A stretch of DNA of 64,000 nucleotides, from NCBI RefSeq assembly GCF_004365705.1, contig NZ_SOBN01000001.1, positions 248,001-312,000 on the forward strand. Reading direction: 5' to 3'. The stretch is from Streptomyces sp. 846.5 (GTDB lineage Bacteria > Actinomycetota > Actinomycetes > Streptomycetales > Streptomycetaceae). This document shows, piece after piece, positions 2,924 through 23,486 of this stretch. Below the pieces are notes generated by a model, which was not told the DNA's origin, ran no database searches, and saw only the letters and a list, made by a program, of their open reading frames with translations. Every line of letters starts with the position of its first letter. Within the stretch, counting starts at the first letter, position 1. A program made the position numbers and the translations under genes.

Positions 2924-3937
2924 CTAGGAGCGGCTCGGCAGCGACCGTGGCAGCCCGAACCATGGCAGCACGCTGTTCTCGAAGCGGGTCATCGTGCGGA
3001 TCCGATCGCCTGAGAGCGTGAGGACGTAGAGGCCGACGCCGTGACTGACACCGGTCGGGTTGCGCAGGTAAGCCCCGAACGCCGGCTGGCCGTTGGCCCG
3101 GATGGGAACGAGTTCGAACCTGCGGCCCGCATCGAAGAGGGCGGCGCAGAAGCCGGCCACGACATCCCGGCCCTGGTATTCGAACGGCATCGGCGGCATC
3201 GCCATGAAGACGTCGTCGGTCAGCAGCGCGACGAGGGCATCGAGATCGGCGGACTCCCAAGCGCGGACGAACTTCGCCACGAGCGCGTCTTCGGCCCGCG
3301 ACGCGACAGCCGGCGCCGGCGCGAGGTCGGCGATGTCCCGGGGCTGTCGGCGGTGGAGCGCCGCGCGTGCCCGTTTGAGGGCGCTGTTGACCGACTCAAC
3401 CGTCGCGTCGAGCATCTCGGACACCTCGCTCGCCCGGAAACCGAGGACGTCGCGCAGGATCAGGACGGCGAGCTGGCGCGGCGGCAGGAGCTGCACCGCG
3501 GTGACGAAGGCCAGGGAGACGGCCTCGGTCTGCTCGTACCGGCTTTCGGGACCAGGCGTCGTCGCGATCGCGTTCTCCAGCAGAGCGTCAGGAAACGGCT
3601 GCAGCCAGACGACCTCGCCGAGCCGGGTCGGTTCGGGCATCTCGACCCCGGGCACGTCCCACTCCTTGCCCAGGCGCCGACCTGCGGCGCGGCGCGCGTC
3701 GAGGCACCGGTTGGTGGCGATCCGGTACAGCCAGACCCGGAGGGAGGCACGTCCCTGGTAGCCGCCCAGGCCTTGCCAGGCAGCCAGCAACGTGGCCTGG
3801 AGGGCGTCCTCGGCGTCCTGGAAGGAACCGAGCATCCGATAGCAGTGCACCTGCAGCTCTCGAAGGTACGGCTCGGTCAGTTCCCGGAACGCCTCGTCGT
3901 CCCCGGCCTGCGCCTTCTCGATCAGATTCGCCGCCAT
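2924..3937 (-). CDS. SigJ/SigX5-type ECF RNA polymerase sigma factor with SnoaL-like C-terminus
   Basis: This is an ECF-like sigma factor of about 337 residues. Region 2 (about 8-75, with ELQVHCYRMLGSFQDAEDAL) and region 4 (about 130-185, LPPRQLAVLILRDVLGFRASEV) are followed by a SnoaL/NTF2-like domain (about 205-330) typical of the SigJ/ECF41-like group, where the extension modulates activity. A GTG at 3943 with a GGAGAGG ribosome site 7 bp upstream is an equally good start. It is divergent from a dihydrofolate-reductase-like gene across a conserved 32-bp dyad (3996-4027) that also occurs before the paralogue at 20456-21514. Confidence 0.88.
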   Translation of the reverse strand: MAANLIEKAQAGDDEAFRELTEPYLRELQVHCYRMLGSFQDAEDALQATLLAAWQGLGGYQGRASLRVWLYRIATNRCLDARRAAGRRLGKEWDVPGVEMPEPTRLGEVVWLQPFPDALLENAIATTPGPESRYEQTEAVSLAFVTAVQLLPPRQLAVLILRDVLGFRASEVSEMLDATVESVNSALKRARAALHRRQPRDIADLAPAPAVASRAEDALVAKFVRAWESADLDALVALLTDDVFMAMPPMPFEYQGRDVVAGFCAALFDAGRRFELVPIRANGQPAFGAYLRNPTGVSHGVGLYVLTLSGDRIRTMTRFENSVLPWFGLPRSLPSRS

Positions 3938-3995
3938 CACCACGCGCCACCCTCTCCACATCTCGTCTCATCCTGTACAGACGTCGGCCGGGGGC

Positions 3996-4027
3996 CGAAC
4001 TGGGCGGCCGGTCGACGCCCGGTTTCG
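3996..4027. promoter_or_regulatory. Dyad shared by both SigJ-type sigma-factor loci (copy 1)
   Basis: Half-sites CGAACTGGGCG and CGCCCGGTTTCG form an imperfect inverted repeat about midway between the sigma gene (start 58 bp away) and the divergent reductase-like gene (62 bp away). Aligned without gaps to 21587-21618 in the other sigma locus, 25 of 32 bases are identical and differences cluster in the centre. It is a promoter or operator element by position; its function is inferred. Confidence 0.6.
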
Positions 4028-4089
4028 CGACTCTCCGGCGCCTTCATGAGCAGCGGTTGACAACGCCGCCACAGATGAAGGGAACCGCA

Positions 4090-4674
4090 ATGGGAAAGAT
4101 CGTGATGAGCGGCCCGCAGAACATGTCGCTCGACGGGGTGGTCCAGGATCCGGACGGCAAGGAGGGCTTCAGGGTCGGCGGCTGGTTCCTCGAGTACGGC
4201 GAGGGACTGGAGGCATGGAGCGAAATCGCCCTCGATGACGCGCTCGGCGCTGAGGCGTGGCTGCTGGGCCGCCACAGCTACACCTACTTCGGGGAGCGCT
4301 GGCGGCCCCGCACCGGCCGGCTCGCGGACAAGTTGAACAGCATGCCGAAGTACGTCGTGTCGTCGACCCTCACTGAGCCCGACTGGAACAACACGACGAT
4401 CCTCAAGGGTGACATCGTGACCGAGGTCTCGAAGCTGAAGGAGGAGTTGGACGGCGAGATCGTCATCCCCGCCAGCTATCAGCTCGGGCACACGCTGATC
4501 GAGCACGACCTCGTCGACGAGGTCCGGCTCGTCGTCTTCCCGGTGGTGCTCGGCGCCGGAAAGCGGTTCTTCGGCGAGACCACCGGCAAGAAGCCGCTGC
4601 GACTGGTCGACGTCAAGACCATCGGCGACGGCCTCGTCGCCCTGACCTACCAGTTCCTCCCAGGACGCGGCTGA
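4090..4674 (+). CDS. Dihydrofolate reductase family protein (RibD C-terminal domain type)
   Basis: This is a single-domain protein of 194 residues. The N-terminal IVMSGPQNMSLDGVVQDPDG is the family signature (MSLDGxxA/Q-type), and the C-terminal half carries the LGHTLIEHDLVDEVRLVVFPVVLGAGKRFF segment of RibD-C/DHFR-fold reductases. The start at 4090 has a GAAGGG ribosome site 7 bp upstream. These proteins are putative NADPH-dependent reductases and are usually not true folate enzymes. The divergent sigma factor and shared dyad suggest it is a target of that sigma factor. A strong terminator follows. Confidence 0.85.
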   Translation: MGKIVMSGPQNMSLDGVVQDPDGKEGFRVGGWFLEYGEGLEAWSEIALDDALGAEAWLLGRHSYTYFGERWRPRTGRLADKLNSMPKYVVSSTLTEPDWNNTTILKGDIVTEVSKLKEELDGEIVIPASYQLGHTLIEHDLVDEVRLVVFPVVLGAGKRFFGETTGKKPLRLVDVKTIGDGLVALTYQFLPGRG

Positions 4675-4681
4675 GTGCGGG

Positions 4682-4713
4682 GATCCGGCGCCGCCGATCG
4701 ACGGCGCCGGATC
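4682..4713 (+). terminator. Intrinsic terminator after the reductase-like gene
   Basis: A perfect 12-bp stem (GATCCGGCGCCG with its complement) and an 8-base loop start 7 bp after the stop codon. There is no long T tract, as is common in actinomycetes. Confidence 0.75.
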
Positions 4714-4852
4714 TTCGGTCAGGGCCCGAGCGGATCACGGTGCAGGATCTTTGGCACGCCGTGATGTGTTGTTGCCTGGCGGGAGGACATGAAGTGGCCC
4801 CGGTGGCCGCGTCGGCCGCCGGGGCTTGATGTTCATGGTGTCGGCGTGGTGC

Positions 4853-7593: not shown

Positions 7594-8877
7594 AGTTGTC
7601 AAGCAACTGCGGTGACTGGCGGTGCAACTTGGTAGCACCGTCGGTCACGGATCAGAGCCCAGAAGACGTTGACGCGTCGGCGGGCCAGGGCGATGACGGC
7701 CTGGGTATGGCGCTTGCCCTCTGCGCGCTTGCGGTCGTAGAAGCGGCGCGAGTTGGGGTCGCAGCGGATGCTGATGAGCGCGGAGGTGTAGAAGACGCGC
7801 TGCAGGCCGCGGTGGTACTGCTGAGGGCGGTGCAGGTTGCCGCTGGTCTTTCCGGAGTCGCGTGGTGCCGGTGCCAGGCCGGCGAACGCCGCGAGGCGGT
7901 CCGGGTTCGCGAAGGAGTCCATGTCACTGCCCACGGCGGCCAGAAACTCGGCTCCGAGAAGGGAACCGATGCCGGGCATGCTGGTGATCACCTCGGCGAG
8001 CTCGTGCTGGCGAAACCGGCCCTCGATGAGCTTGTCGATCTCCGCGATCTTCCCGTTGAGAGCCACCACCTCCTCTGTGAGCGTGCGCACCATCGCGGCG
8101 AGGGTCCCCTCGCCGGGAACCGCGGTGCGCTGGCGCTCAGCGGCCTCGACCGCGGCAGCGGCCAGGGCCTCGGCGCCGCGAACCTTGCGGGCACGCAACC
8201 ACTTCGCGAGCCGGGCCGCCCCCAGGCGCCGGATCGCGTCCGGGGTCTGATATCCGCTCAGCAGCACCAGCGGCCCCGTGTTGGTCAGCTCCAGAGCGCG
8301 CTCCAAACCGGGGAACATGCTGGTCAGCATGCCCCGCAGGCGGTTGACCGCGCGAGTTCGGTCGCAGACCAGGTCGGTGCGCCGATTGGTGAACAGGCGC
8401 AGTTCGATGCTCGCCTCGTCGCTGGGGCGCATCGGCTTCAGGTCCCGGCGGATGCGGGCCTGGTCCGCGATGACCAGCGCGTCGCGGGCATCGGTTTTGC
8501 CTTCGCCGCGGTAGCCGTCAGTGGCCCGGTTGACCGCCCGCCCGGGGATGTAGAGCAGCTCCTGTTCGTGGTTGACCAGCAGAGCGATCAGCAGGGCGGC
8601 CCCGCCGTCGGCCATGTCCACCGCCCAGGTGACCTGGTCTGCCAGGGCGAGGACGTCGGCGAGGAGTTGGAGGAGCTCCGGTTCGTCGTTGGCCACCCGT
8701 CGGGACAGCAGCTTGGCGCCGTCGGTGTCCAGCACCACGCAGTGGTGGTGGGTCTTGCCGCTGTCGATCCCGGCCCATATTCGGCTCATCGTGCTCCCAA
8801 GAGTCGTTCCTGCAGTGCGTACCACGGACGACCTCGCCGGCATTGCCTTACGCAGCGACTTGTTCGCACTTCCCAAT
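7592..8877 (-). mobile_element. IS110-family insertion sequence, about 1.29 kb
   Basis: A complete DEDD transposase gene fills almost the whole element. The nonamer CTTCCCAAT occurs at 7583-7591 on one side and again at 8869-8877 on the other, which gives the most likely borders. Only 7 bp separate the 3' border from the transposase stop, and about 88 bp of non-coding DNA lie upstream of its start. As expected for IS110, there are no long terminal inverted repeats; a short AGTTG/CAACT dyad lies at the 7594 end. Confidence 0.7.
7599..8789 (-). CDS. IS110 family transposase (DEDD recombinase)
   Basis: The protein has 396 residues and is full length. The N-terminal RuvC-like DEDD domain begins RIWAGIDSGKTHHHCVVLD and continues through AVDMADGGA and GKTDARDALVIAD (the paired Asp). 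The C-terminal transposase_20 domain contains ITSMPGIGSLLGAEFLAAVG and the serine-containing segment DSGKTSGNLHRP. The start at 8789 has a GGGAG ribosome site; the frame is open upstream to 8876. No frameshift is seen, so the element may be active. IS110 recombinases of this kind use an element-encoded bridge RNA. Confidence 0.95.
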   Translation of the reverse strand: MSRIWAGIDSGKTHHHCVVLDTDGAKLLSRRVANDEPELLQLLADVLALADQVTWAVDMADGGAALLIALLVNHEQELLYIPGRAVNRATDGYRGEGKTDARDALVIADQARIRRDLKPMRPSDEASIELRLFTNRRTDLVCDRTRAVNRLRGMLTSMFPGLERALELTNTGPLVLLSGYQTPDAIRRLGAARLAKWLRARKVRGAEALAAAAVEAAERQRTAVPGEGTLAAMVRTLTEEVVALNGKIAEIDKLIEGRFRQHELAEVITSMPGIGSLLGAEFLAAVGSDMDSFANPDRLAAFAGLAPAPRDSGKTSGNLHRPQQYHRGLQRVFYTSALISIRCDPNSRRFYDRKRAEGKRHTQAVIALARRRVNVFWALIRDRRCYQVAPPVTAVA

Positions 8878-20455: not shown

Positions 20456-21514
20456 TCAATCTGTCTCGGGGAGGGTTCGGGGCAGTCCGAAGCGCGTCAT
20501 GACGTTGGTGTTGAAGCTGGTGATGGCGGTGATGTGGTCGCCGTCGCCGGCGGTGGTGATGACCAGGAGGCAGTAGGCGCGGTGGACACTGGCGTGGGGG
20601 TCTGCCAGGTAGATGCCGAAGGCGGGCTGGCCGTTGGCGCGGGTGGGTACCACGCGGTAGCTGCGGCCGGGGCTGAAGGCGCCGGCGGCGAGGAGGCGCT
20701 GGGCTGATTCGATGCCGTGGTACTCGAGCATGGCCGGGGGCATGGAGAGTCTCACGTCGGTGACGAGCAGTTCGATCAGGGCGTCCAGGTCGGCTCGTTC
20801 CAGGGCGTCGGTGAACCGGGCGACGAGCCGGTGTTCGGCGGCGGTGTCGGGCTGGCGTGCAGGCCTGCGGCTGCCGGTGGGGCTGCTGCCGCTGGAATCG
20901 GCGAGGTGGTTGTCGACGGTGGCGCGGGCGCGTTTGAGCGCGCTGCTCACGGCTTCCTGGGTGGTGTCGAGCATCTGGGCGGCTTCGGCGGCGTGGTAGC
21001 CCAGGACGTCGCGCAGGACGAGCGCGGCGCGTTGGCGTGGGGGCAGCAGCTGCAGGGCGGTGATGAAGGCCAGGGAGATGGCCTCGGTGGTCTCGTAGCG
21101 GGCCTCCGGCCCGGGGCGCTGGTCGACGAGGTGGTCGAGCAGGACGTCCGGATAGGGCTCCAACCAGGGCGGGGCATCGCCGGCGCCGGTGGGTTCGGGC
21201 AGGGTGGCCTCGGACGGCGCGGGCGCGGTGCGGGGGCGTCGGCTGTTGGCGCGCAGCATGCTCAGGCACCGATTGGTCGCGATCTGGTACAGCCAGGTCC
21301 GCAGCGAGGACCGCTGGCCGAACTCGCCGAGGTTACGCCAGGCGGACACGAGAGTCTCCTGGAGTGCGTCCTCGGCGTCCTGCAGGGAACCCAGGATGCG
21401 GTAGCAGTGCACCTGCAACTCGTGGGCGTGGCCCTGGACCAGGTCGCGGAACGCGTTGTGGTCGCCGGCCCGAGCCCGAGCGATCAGGTCCGTCGTGTCC
21501 CTCTCCATCGGCAT
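20456..21514 (-). CDS. SigJ/SigX5-type ECF RNA polymerase sigma factor, second copy
   Basis: This 352-residue paralogue of the sigma factor at 2924-3937 has the same architecture: region 2 (HELQVHCYRILGSLQDAEDAL), region 4 (LPPRQRAALVLRDVLGYHAAEAAQML) and a SnoaL-like extension ending with VPTRANGQPAFGIYL and MTRFGLPRTLP. It is divergent from a YCII-like/MFS operon across a 182-bp region that carries the second copy of the 32-bp dyad. The pair therefore looks like two parallel sigma/target modules, with autoregulation likely. Confidence 0.9.
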   Translation of the reverse strand: MPMERDTTDLIARARAGDHNAFRDLVQGHAHELQVHCYRILGSLQDAEDALQETLVSAWRNLGEFGQRSSLRTWLYQIATNRCLSMLRANSRRPRTAPAPSEATLPEPTGAGDAPPWLEPYPDVLLDHLVDQRPGPEARYETTEAISLAFITALQLLPPRQRAALVLRDVLGYHAAEAAQMLDTTQEAVSSALKRARATVDNHLADSSGSSPTGSRRPARQPDTAAEHRLVARFTDALERADLDALIELLVTDVRLSMPPAMLEYHGIESAQRLLAAGAFSPGRSYRVVPTRANGQPAFGIYLADPHASVHRAYCLLVITTAGDGDHITAITSFNTNVMTRFGLPRTLPETD

Positions 21515-21586
21515 GCATCCTCGCCTTTCTGTTCTTTCCGCAGGGCGCGTTCGGCTCGCCCACCCATACCGACGCCGCCGGGCCCG

Positions 21587-21618
21587 CGAATTGGGCGGCG
21601 TTGCGCCGCCCGATTTCG
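21587..21618. promoter_or_regulatory. Dyad shared by both SigJ-type sigma-factor loci (copy 2)
   Basis: Half-sites CGAATTGGGCG and CGCCCGATTTCG flank a GCGTTGCGC-like centre. The site is 72 bp from the sigma gene start and 78 bp from the divergent YCII-like start, the same central placing as copy 1 at 3996-4027. Confidence 0.6.
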
Positions 21619-21696
21619 GGCGGACGGTGGCGTCTACCCGGTTGGAGGCGGTCCCAGTCCGGGACGCGCCCCGGAGACAGAACAGGACGACAGATC

Positions 21697-21996
21697 ATGG
21701 CCAGGTACGTTTTCTCCTTCCGTGTGCCCTCCGACTACAGGCCCGGCGCCGGGACGCCGGCCGAGTGGCAGGCCTGGTTCGCCGGGCTGGGCCCGGCCCT
21801 GGTGGACGTCGGCAACGCGGTGACCGCGTACGCCTCGCTCGGCGAGGTCGGCGGCAGCGGCTCCCGGATGGTCGCCTACTCGGTGGTCTCCGCCGAGGAC
21901 CTGGACTCCGCGCTGGCGCTGGCCAAGGACTGCCCCGTGATGCGGGTCGGCGGTGGCGTCGAGGTCGGCCCCGTGATGGAAGCCGCCGGGTCGTGA
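21697..21996 (+). CDS. YCII/DGPF-like small protein
   Basis: The protein has 99 residues. MARYVFSFRVPSDYRPG and a C-terminal SAEDLDSALALAKDCPVMRVGGGVEVGPVMEA are the layout of YCII-related dimeric barrel proteins, which commonly travel with SigJ-type sigma factors. The start at 21697 is the only ATG giving this domain. It overlaps the MFS gene by 4 bp (GTGA), so the two are translationally coupled. Confidence 0.8.
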   Translation: MARYVFSFRVPSDYRPGAGTPAEWQAWFAGLGPALVDVGNAVTAYASLGEVGGSGSRMVAYSVVSAEDLDSALALAKDCPVMRVGGGVEVGPVMEAAGS

Positions 21997-23486
21997 GCGA
22001 CGCCATGACCGCATCGACGGCGCCACCGGAGGGCTCGTTCCTGGCCACCGGGCGCGGCAGGGTCACGCTGGCGCTGCTGTGTGCGGTGACGTTCCTGGAC
22101 GTGATGGACGGCTCGATCGTGAACGTCGCGCTGCCGACCATCCGTACCCATCTGGGGTTCTCGGTGCAGAACCTGCAGTGGGTGGTCAGCGGCTATCTGA
22201 TCACCTATGGCGGGTTCCTGCTGCTGGGCGGTCGGGCCGCGGACCTGCTGGGGCGACGGCGGCTGCTGATCGCCGGGACCGCGCTGTTCGCGGCCTCCTC
22301 GCTGGCCTGCGGGTTGGCCGACGACCAGGGGCTGCTGGTCGGCGCCCGGCTCGCCCAGGGCTTCGGGGCCGCGATGATGTCCCCGGCCGCGCTGTCCATC
22401 CTGACCACCAGCTTCCAGAACTCCGACCGGCACAGGGCGCTGGGCGTGTGGGCCGGGATCAGCGGGCTGGCCTCGGCGGTCGGGCTGTTCTTCGGCGGGC
22501 TGCTCACCCAGGACCTCGGCTGGCGGTGGGTGTTCTTCGTGAACCTCCCGATGGCTGCGCTGGTGCTGTTCGGGGCGTTCCGGGTCCTGAAGGCGGACCA
22601 CGGCCGGTCCGTCCCGGGCGGATTCGACGTGGTCGGCGCGGTGCTGGTCACTGCTGGCATGCTGCTGCTGATCTTCACGTTGGTGAAGGCGCCGGACGAG
22701 GGCTGGGGTGCGGGCCGCACCATCGGCGGGCTGGCCGCTTCGGCCGTGCTGATGGCCGCGTTCGTGGTCAATGAGCAGCGACGCACCCGTCCGCTGGTCC
22801 CGTTGTCGATCTTCCGGATCAGGGGCCTGGCCGCGGCCGATGCCACCCAGGTGATCGCCTGGGCCGGGTTCTACTCGATGTTCTTCTTCGTCACCCTGTA
22901 CATGCAGAACGTCCTGGGCTACTCCCAGCTGCGGTCCGGACTCGCGTACGTGCCGGTGAGCGTCGGCATCGGGTTCGGCTCGACCGTGGCCACGAAGATG
23001 TTCGCCCGGACCGGTACCCGTCCGATCATCGTCTCCGGTGCGCTGCTCGCCGCCGGTGGCATCCTGTGGCTGTCCCGCATCCCGGTGGACGGCACCTATC
23101 TCGGCAACCTGCTCGCCCCGCTGGTGCTCATGGGGGCCGGGCTGGGGCTGCTGTACGCCGGTGTGCAGACAGCGGCGAACGCGGGCGTGCCGGAGGAGCA
23201 GGCCGGATTGGCCGCGGCCCTGATCACCGCCTCCTTCCAACTCGGGTCAGCGCTGGGCCTGGCGGTGTTCAGCGGGATCGCGACCAGCCGCACCAACCAC
23301 CTGCTGGCCGCCCACACCCCGCCCCCGGAGGCACTCACCGCCGGATTCCAGCGGGCCCTGCTCATCAGCGCTCTCTGCCTCGTGACAGCCGGAGCCATCG
23401 CGCTGCGCGCCTCCAACACCCGCGGCGAACCCGCCGCCACACCGGAAACCCAACAGAACCTGGAACCCTCCTACGACCCCGCCTGA
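21993..23486 (+). CDS. MFS transporter, DHA2/EmrB (14-helix) drug exporter type
   Basis: This is a 497-residue membrane transporter. DVMDGSIVNVALPTI in helix 1, LGRRRLLIAG after helix 2 and RLAQGFGAAMMSPAALSIL in helix 4-5 are DHA2 signatures, and fourteen hydrophobic segments are apparent. It exports small toxic compounds by proton antiport; the substrate is unknown. The GTG start overlaps the YCII-like stop. Expression is likely tied to the divergent sigma factor. A very strong bidirectional terminator follows. Confidence 0.92.
   Translation: MSDAMTASTAPPEGSFLATGRGRVTLALLCAVTFLDVMDGSIVNVALPTIRTHLGFSVQNLQWVVSGYLITYGGFLLLGGRAADLLGRRRLLIAGTALFAASSLACGLADDQGLLVGARLAQGFGAAMMSPAALSILTTSFQNSDRHRALGVWAGISGLASAVGLFFGGLLTQDLGWRWVFFVNLPMAALVLFGAFRVLKADHGRSVPGGFDVVGAVLVTAGMLLLIFTLVKAPDEGWGAGRTIGGLAASAVLMAAFVVNEQRRTRPLVPLSIFRIRGLAAADATQVIAWAGFYSMFFFVTLYMQNVLGYSQLRSGLAYVPVSVGIGFGSTVATKMFARTGTRPIIVSGALLAAGGILWLSRIPVDGTYLGNLLAPLVLMGAGLGLLYAGVQTAANAGVPEEQAGLAAALITASFQLGSALGLAVFSGIATSRTNHLLAAHTPPPEALTAGFQRALLISALCLVTAGAIALRASNTRGEPAATPETQQNLEPSYDPA

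Follow-up and report, generated by a model that had tools for sequence, protein, structure and literature searches.

The ECF41 (SigJ-type) sigma factors carry a SnoaL-type C-terminal extension, and their target promoter, TGTCACA-N16-CGTC, precedes both the sigma gene and a small neighbouring enzyme gene that is the sole detectable target; fewer than 20% of ECF41 loci are divergent (PMC3426412). For Mycobacterium tuberculosis SigG the promoter CGATGA-N18-GTCNNTA has been proposed, the targets are unlinked glyoxalase-like genes of detoxification type, and SigG's own promoter is not activated (PMC3776920). SigG1 of Streptomyces tsukubaensis (ECF56) carries a SnoaL_2 domain and is broadly similar to the ECF sigmas described below; its motif is CCG-N17-CCCTCC, its anti-sigma RsfG is co-transcribed, and its own promoter gave no ChIP peak (PMC7730460). 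In M. tuberculosis SigH and S. coelicolor SigR the reading of promoter bases by individual residues, at a 17-bp spacer, has been shown by structure and mutants (PMC6411747).

The DNA analysed here (the window) is a 64,000-nucleotide stretch of the Streptomyces sp. 846.5 genome, in which two sigma genes of this kind each stand divergent from a small gene across an intergenic region that holds the same 32-bp dyad. Comparative sequence analysis makes it very probable that the dyad forms the centre of a symmetric, divergent promoter, of a type seen in numerous soil bacteria, that is used by the adjacently encoded sigma factor; this sigma would fire both ways and amplify its own synthesis. The -35 arms have the form GCCC[A/C]NTT, whereas the TGTCACA element of ECF41/SigJ promoters is absent from these loci, and unlike ECF41 loci they are usually divergent, with inverted -35s in one dyad. 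The -10 is the one proposed for SigG, at a compatible spacing, but the -35 core is different. We take SigG to belong to the same broad group as the window sigmas. Autoregulation by ECF sigma factors is already known; what appears to be new is the dyad architecture and a residue code that goes with it, rather than the discovery of an ECF promoter.

Sigma factors, partner genes and the shared dyad

The two window sigmas are 53% identical to one another and match the TIGR02960/SigX5 model over its full length at 321.0 and 317.8 bits, above the NCBI curated cut-off of 264.75, whereas both fall below the cut-off of 271 for the SigJ family model PRK09636 (84.5 and 91.1 bits), so that of the "SigJ/SigX5-type" label in the preliminary description only the SigX5 half stands. 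The SnoaL_2 domain scores 36.2 bits in sigma 1 (cut-off 27) and, below that cut-off, 23.8 bits in sigma 2. Sigma2-sigma4 regions followed by a C-terminal SnoaL_2 domain, the arrangement by which ECF56 is recognized, are present here, and the group is a candidate for ECF56 or a neighbour among the SnoaL-bearing ECFs (ECF205/294/295 share SnoaL-like domains). By analogy with ECF41 the extension is likely a sensor or activity regulator.

Sigma 1 has a RibD_C protein as its partner, in agreement with its earlier description as DHFR-like (Table 1), whereas a "YCII-like" assignment for the 99 amino acid partner of sigma 2 finds no support from Pfam or NCBIfam. Relatives of this 99 amino acid protein stand divergent from such sigmas in other genomes. 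Among 161 non-redundant sigma loci (see below) the divergent partners are RibD_C/DHFR-like in 63, SDR in 28, MFS and/or the 99 amino acid family in 21, and presumably DUF899-like in 2, with 47 unassigned.

The two dyad copies agree at 25 of 32 positions by direct count, five of the seven mismatches lie at central positions 14-20, and the dyad centres are at most 3 bp from the midpoints of the intergenic regions (3938-4089 and 21515-21696), all much as had been claimed. Copy 2 is near-perfectly symmetric, GGGCGGCG-TTG-CGCCGCCC. Both copies match the degenerate pattern proposed earlier exactly, and allowing up to 3 mismatches no match occurs in the shuffled window. At the same stringency the 9.03-Mb genome holds three matches, against zero for the reversed pattern, so the element is above random frequency; the third match, C1:54096-54127, lies inside a duplicate of window positions 2924-4725.

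Table 1. Genes and predicted promoter elements in the window
Feature	Position	Strand	Remarks
ECF sigma factor 1 (TIGR02960/SigX5, SnoaL_2 extension)	2924..3937	-	code residues N184, D80
Sigma-1 promoter, putative -10 element GTCTGTA	3976..3982	-	C precedes it, in line with D80; predicted +1 near 3971
32-bp dyad, copy 1 (two putative back-to-back -35 arms, 11 bp apart)	3996..4027	.	
Sigma-1 promoter, putative -35 arm GCCCAGTT (dyad left arm)	3998..4005	-	
RibD_C/DHFR-like gene promoter, putative -35 arm GCCCGGTT (dyad right arm)	4017..4024	+	
RibD_C-gene promoter, putative -10 element GCCTTCA, degenerate	4040..4046	+	predicted +1 near 4051
RibD_C (DHFR-like reductase) partner gene	4090..4674	+	PF01872, 1.3e-19
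ECF sigma factor 2 (TIGR02960)	20456..21514	-	code residues S184, S80
Sigma-2 promoter, putative -10 element GTCGGTA	21567..21573	-	predicted +1 near 21562
32-bp dyad, copy 2	21587..21618	.	
Sigma-2 promoter, putative -35 arm GCCCAATT	21589..21596	-	
Sigma-2 partner promoter, putative -35 arm GCCCGATT	21608..21615	+	
Sigma-2 partner promoter, putative -10 element GTCTACC, spacing 22	21632..21638	+	
Small partner protein, 99 aa	21697..21996	+	without Pfam, NCBIfam or PHROG match
MFS drug-efflux-type transporter (DHA2/EmrB)	21993..23486	+	4-bp overlap with small gene

An ~80-bp unit with near-constant arm-to-box spacing

When 150 genomes of the same family were searched with the dyad pattern, it matched the promoters of such sigma genes in four others (L008, L012, L013 and L015), and the remaining matches lay at places without sigma and partner homologues. 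Alignment of these promoters revealed conserved boxes outside the dyad, which is only the core of a longer unit: across 161 non-redundant sigma loci, conservation covers about 80 bp and comprises two inverted GCCC[A/C]NTT arms and two outward-facing G[T/C]GTCNNTA boxes. The eighty named loci from which a consensus was drawn, with sigmas 68-80% identical, span Actinobacteria, Mesorhizobium, Lysobacter and Rhodanobacter, and give GTAGACACCGC-n8-GGAAACTGGGCGCC-n5-ACCGCCCAGTTCGCCCCTCGGCCGGTGTCTATACAGGATG; read outward on either side, this is a GCCC[A/C]NTT arm, 13 nt, and G[T/C]GTCNNTA. The arm consensus in the family is CCGCCC[A/C]NTTC, and the window arms read GCCC[A/G]NTT. In 80 of 84 homologue regions a leave-one-out matrix built on the sigma-side half scores this half higher than the 99% shuffled null, and it was found in 80 of 100 new non-redundant homologues, so that the expectation of a dedicated promoter, conserved upstream of homologous sigma genes, is supported. 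The view that the DNA surrounding the dyads is not similar has to be given up, since GTCNNTA-type boxes face outward 21-22 nt from each arm and the flanks are conserved there. In L026-L105 conservation extends past the -10 boxes into both 5' leaders, with ...TACAGGATGGAAGTGCGACAAGG... on the side of the sigma gene and GTCTACATCAGTGGTAGCCGACAAC... on that of the partner, and exceeds what a promoter needs.

Both halves are present in 120 of the 161 loci that have a sigma-side half. On the partner side the distance from arm to box is 21 in 103 of these 120, 22 in 10 and 20 in 7; a spacing of 21 places 17 bp between GCCCNN and GTC, a near-constant distance of the kind expected in ECF promoters, and in SigH numbering puts the GCCCNN arm at -34 to -29 and GTC at -11 to -9, with the 17-bp spacer that is optimal for SigH (PMC6411747). 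The predicted +1 of the sigma-1 promoter follows from the same numbering (PMC6411747). The arm-to-arm gap, in contrast, takes twelve values between -20 and +20; it is 11 in 93 of 120, and the others seen are -20, 0, 2, 3, 4, 5, 8, 9, 10, 12 and 20. This combination of a near-fixed arm-to-box and a variable arm-to-arm distance argues for two predicted back-to-back ECF promoters, with the -35 arms inside and the -10 boxes outside, rather than one rigid operator. An operator had been offered earlier as the other possibility. If bound by a dimeric, TetR/MarR-like and possibly unlinked repressor or activator, with the promoters elsewhere, it would account for the near-perfect dyad symmetry and for the frequent gap of 11, but the half-sites show no fixed centre-to-centre distance, 20-22 nt is kept from each arm to its own outward GTC box whatever the gap, and L042, L073 and L098 have a single half only; together with the residue code described below, this makes an operator very improbable. 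The common gap of 11 leaves room for an additional constraint on the paired promoters.

A few loci have unusual geometry. The unit is compact in L077 (Mycobacterium colombiense), where the overlap of the two divergent promoters is deep enough to reverse the order of the -35 arms, giving the gap of -20; L095 and L104 look similar, and were left out of the scoring as their sigma start is uncertain. In L074 (Mesorhizobium silamurunense) one -35 arm segment is tandemly duplicated (GCAGCGTAAAACTGGGC), which yields the gap of 20.

A dyad that serves as a single -35/-10 promoter of the older M. tuberculosis SigG type was also considered, and was dropped because the older SigG consensus has been judged unlikely to be correct (PMC3776920) and the conserved -10 boxes lie outside the dyad.

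The partner-side half scores below the sigma-side half, and at window site 1 its -10 is GCCTTCA, so that perhaps only the sigma gene depends on the sigma factor, the enzyme being transcribed from another promoter and the half that faces it being a decaying or non-functional relic. We regard this as unlikely, as 73 of 84 partner halves are above the 99% shuffled null with spacing kept at 20-22, and the partner half changes in step with the sigma-side half, hence also with the sigma itself (next section). On the preferred reading as a working two-way promoter, the RibD_C side of window site 1 is predicted to be the weaker because its -10 begins with GCC, not GTC.

A two-residue code linking sigma factor and promoter

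The two halves share arm base 5 at 65 of 76 loci (31 +- 4 by permutation) and the base before GTC at 72 of 76 (37 +- 4); in the enlarged set these figures are 106 of 120 and, somewhat lower, 105 of 120. Such agreement indicates that both halves are read by something with one specificity. When all columns of the sigma alignment were ranked, residue 184 (region 4.2) came top for arm base 5 and residue 80 (region 2.4) for the -12 base, that is, the base before GTC, and the same was found with 161 sequences. Among the first 81 loci K184 always occurs with C and N, T, S, D or H184 always with either A or G; but for two exceptions, T accompanies N80 and C accompanies D or S80. A held-out set of 100 new sigmas, none more than 95% identical to any earlier one, contained 80 with a promoter, and here K184 predicted C in 6/6 and N/T/Q184 predicted A/G in 64/65, while N80 predicted T in 68/71 and D/S80 predicted C in 8/8. 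A rare T to C change in the -10 accompanies N76 to H in two of three cases; for arm base 6, the spacer, -8 and -7 the residue links are weak or clade effects. The sigma factor itself is thus the likely reader of both halves, and an arm base that follows a region 4.2 residue of that sigma again speaks against an operator bound by another protein.

Could shared ancestry produce this pattern, the unit being functionless intergenic DNA inherited alongside the sigma gene? The loci are homologous and the window copies belong to paralogous genes, and cross-pair correlations of -0.49 and -0.51 do reveal some shared ancestry signal, and the independent evolutionary pairs with strong support are few, 2 and 4, almost all of them concordant. 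When the DNA base was evolved on the sigma tree with both code residues masked, however, the observed phi values of 0.954 and 0.905 exceeded the simulated maxima of 0.72 and 0.77 (3000 draws). Conservation is moreover focused on arms, boxes and start regions; it holds for sigmas as little as about 50% identical, and it crosses phyla (Actinobacteria, Mesorhizobium, Lysobacter, Rhodanobacter). Common descent alone is almost certainly not the explanation, and recognition by the sigma remains the preferred one.

In an alignment with M. tuberculosis SigH, residues 184, 80 and 76 correspond to M181, N92 and N88. In the SigH structure M181 contacts -31/-30, where the M181A change loosens stringency, N92 makes contact with the -11 pair and N88 is the reader of -10, and these residues set base preference at the same positions (PMC6411747). 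The code derived from sequence comparison therefore falls on known DNA-reading residues of a homologue, although each matched base lies one position away from the SigH contact that is best defined (-30 against -31, -12 against -11), which leaves residual uncertainty. Nine held-out sigmas have A184, and their arm base 5 is mixed (A, C, G or T); these natural variants behave as M181A does. In SigH/SigR the reading rests on structure and mutants, whereas here it appears as a natural two-position code from co-evolution, and it uses other residues and bases.

We propose the following course of events. Region 4.2 of the sigma would read the GCCC[A/C]NTT-type arm as -35 and region 2 the outward G[T/C]GTCNNTA box, whose start lies 21-22 nt from the arm start, as -10; since arms and boxes face both ways, polymerase loaded with this sigma could fire left and right. 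Leftward firing would yield more sigma (positive autoregulation), and rightward firing either the adjacent reductase or the small protein together with the exporter. Transcription, the strengths of the two directions and autoregulation are here inferred from the DNA.

Related loci and the reach of the proposed switch

The genome has nine TIGR02960 genes, four of which carry the element: the two window sigmas, the duplicate of sigma 1, and a paralogue at C1:358 kb. The "two-module" circuit first proposed was thus too narrow, as the two distinct window loci are joined by the duplicate and by the locus with an SDR partner. The duplicated sigma-1/RibD_C cassette is 1,802 bp long, 99.6% identical to window 2924-4725, and inverted. 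The copies are about 200 kb apart, the second at about 53.4-55.2 kb of G000:C1 (L001 803-2604), and one duplication boundary is exactly the sigma stop codon; an ORF at window 7599-8876 (-), about 3 kb from the cassette, resembles an IS110-type transposase by ORF reading alone. The C1:358-kb sigma, a 54% identical paralogue, is divergent from an SDR gene; its arms, GACCAGTT and GACCAGAA, are separated by 10 bp, and each side has GTGTC (GGTGTC). All four loci obey the code, with N184/D80 in sigma 1, S184/S80 in sigma 2 and T184/N80 in the SDR-linked sigma. The element was not found at the more distant TIGR02960 paralogues L106-L109 and L114, nor was a sigma-side promoter found for the K184-type sigmas L183-L190, L275 and L277 (about 50% identical). 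L183, L184 and L189 have a good half-promoter, but solely on the opposite strand.

A strict half-promoter pattern, GMCCRNTT-N14-16-GTCNNTA, matches only the four sigma promoters in the 9-Mb genome; its reversed control gives 6 matches, so its value lies in every forward match being a sigma promoter. A looser pattern gives 25 matches against 19 reversed, without a clear excess beyond the sigma loci that would mark further regulon members. The detectable regulon is therefore local, which is also the case in ECF41 (PMC3426412). By the code, sigmas 1 and 2 belong to one reading class (184 = N/S, 80 = D/S), and cross-activation of their modules is predicted for that reason; the SDR-linked promoter differs from theirs at arm base 2 and -12, and that paralogue should be insulated from both. 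As SigG1 has no ChIP peak at its own promoter (PMC7730460), autoregulation is not general across the wider group, and we limit the claim to the subfamily at least about 50% identical to the window sigmas.

These observations give a SnoaL-type sigma group a concrete promoter and predicted targets, itself and its neighbour, and an evolved base-reading code consistent with the crystal structure of SigH. With this code, single-residue swaps can directly test the promoter specificity of ECF sigmas, and cross-talk between paralogues in a genome (sigma 1 with sigma 2), or its absence, can be predicted. We lean, by a small degree, towards a broader picture in which these are widespread, self-contained two-way sigma switches that move between phyla with their own promoter, and in which the two-residue code (184 to arm base 5, 80 to the base before GTC) governs the joint diversification of promoter and sigma, so that a single genome can hold families of mutually insulated switches. 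For actinomycete genetics, the code suggests a ready supply of two-way switches that are insulated from one another.
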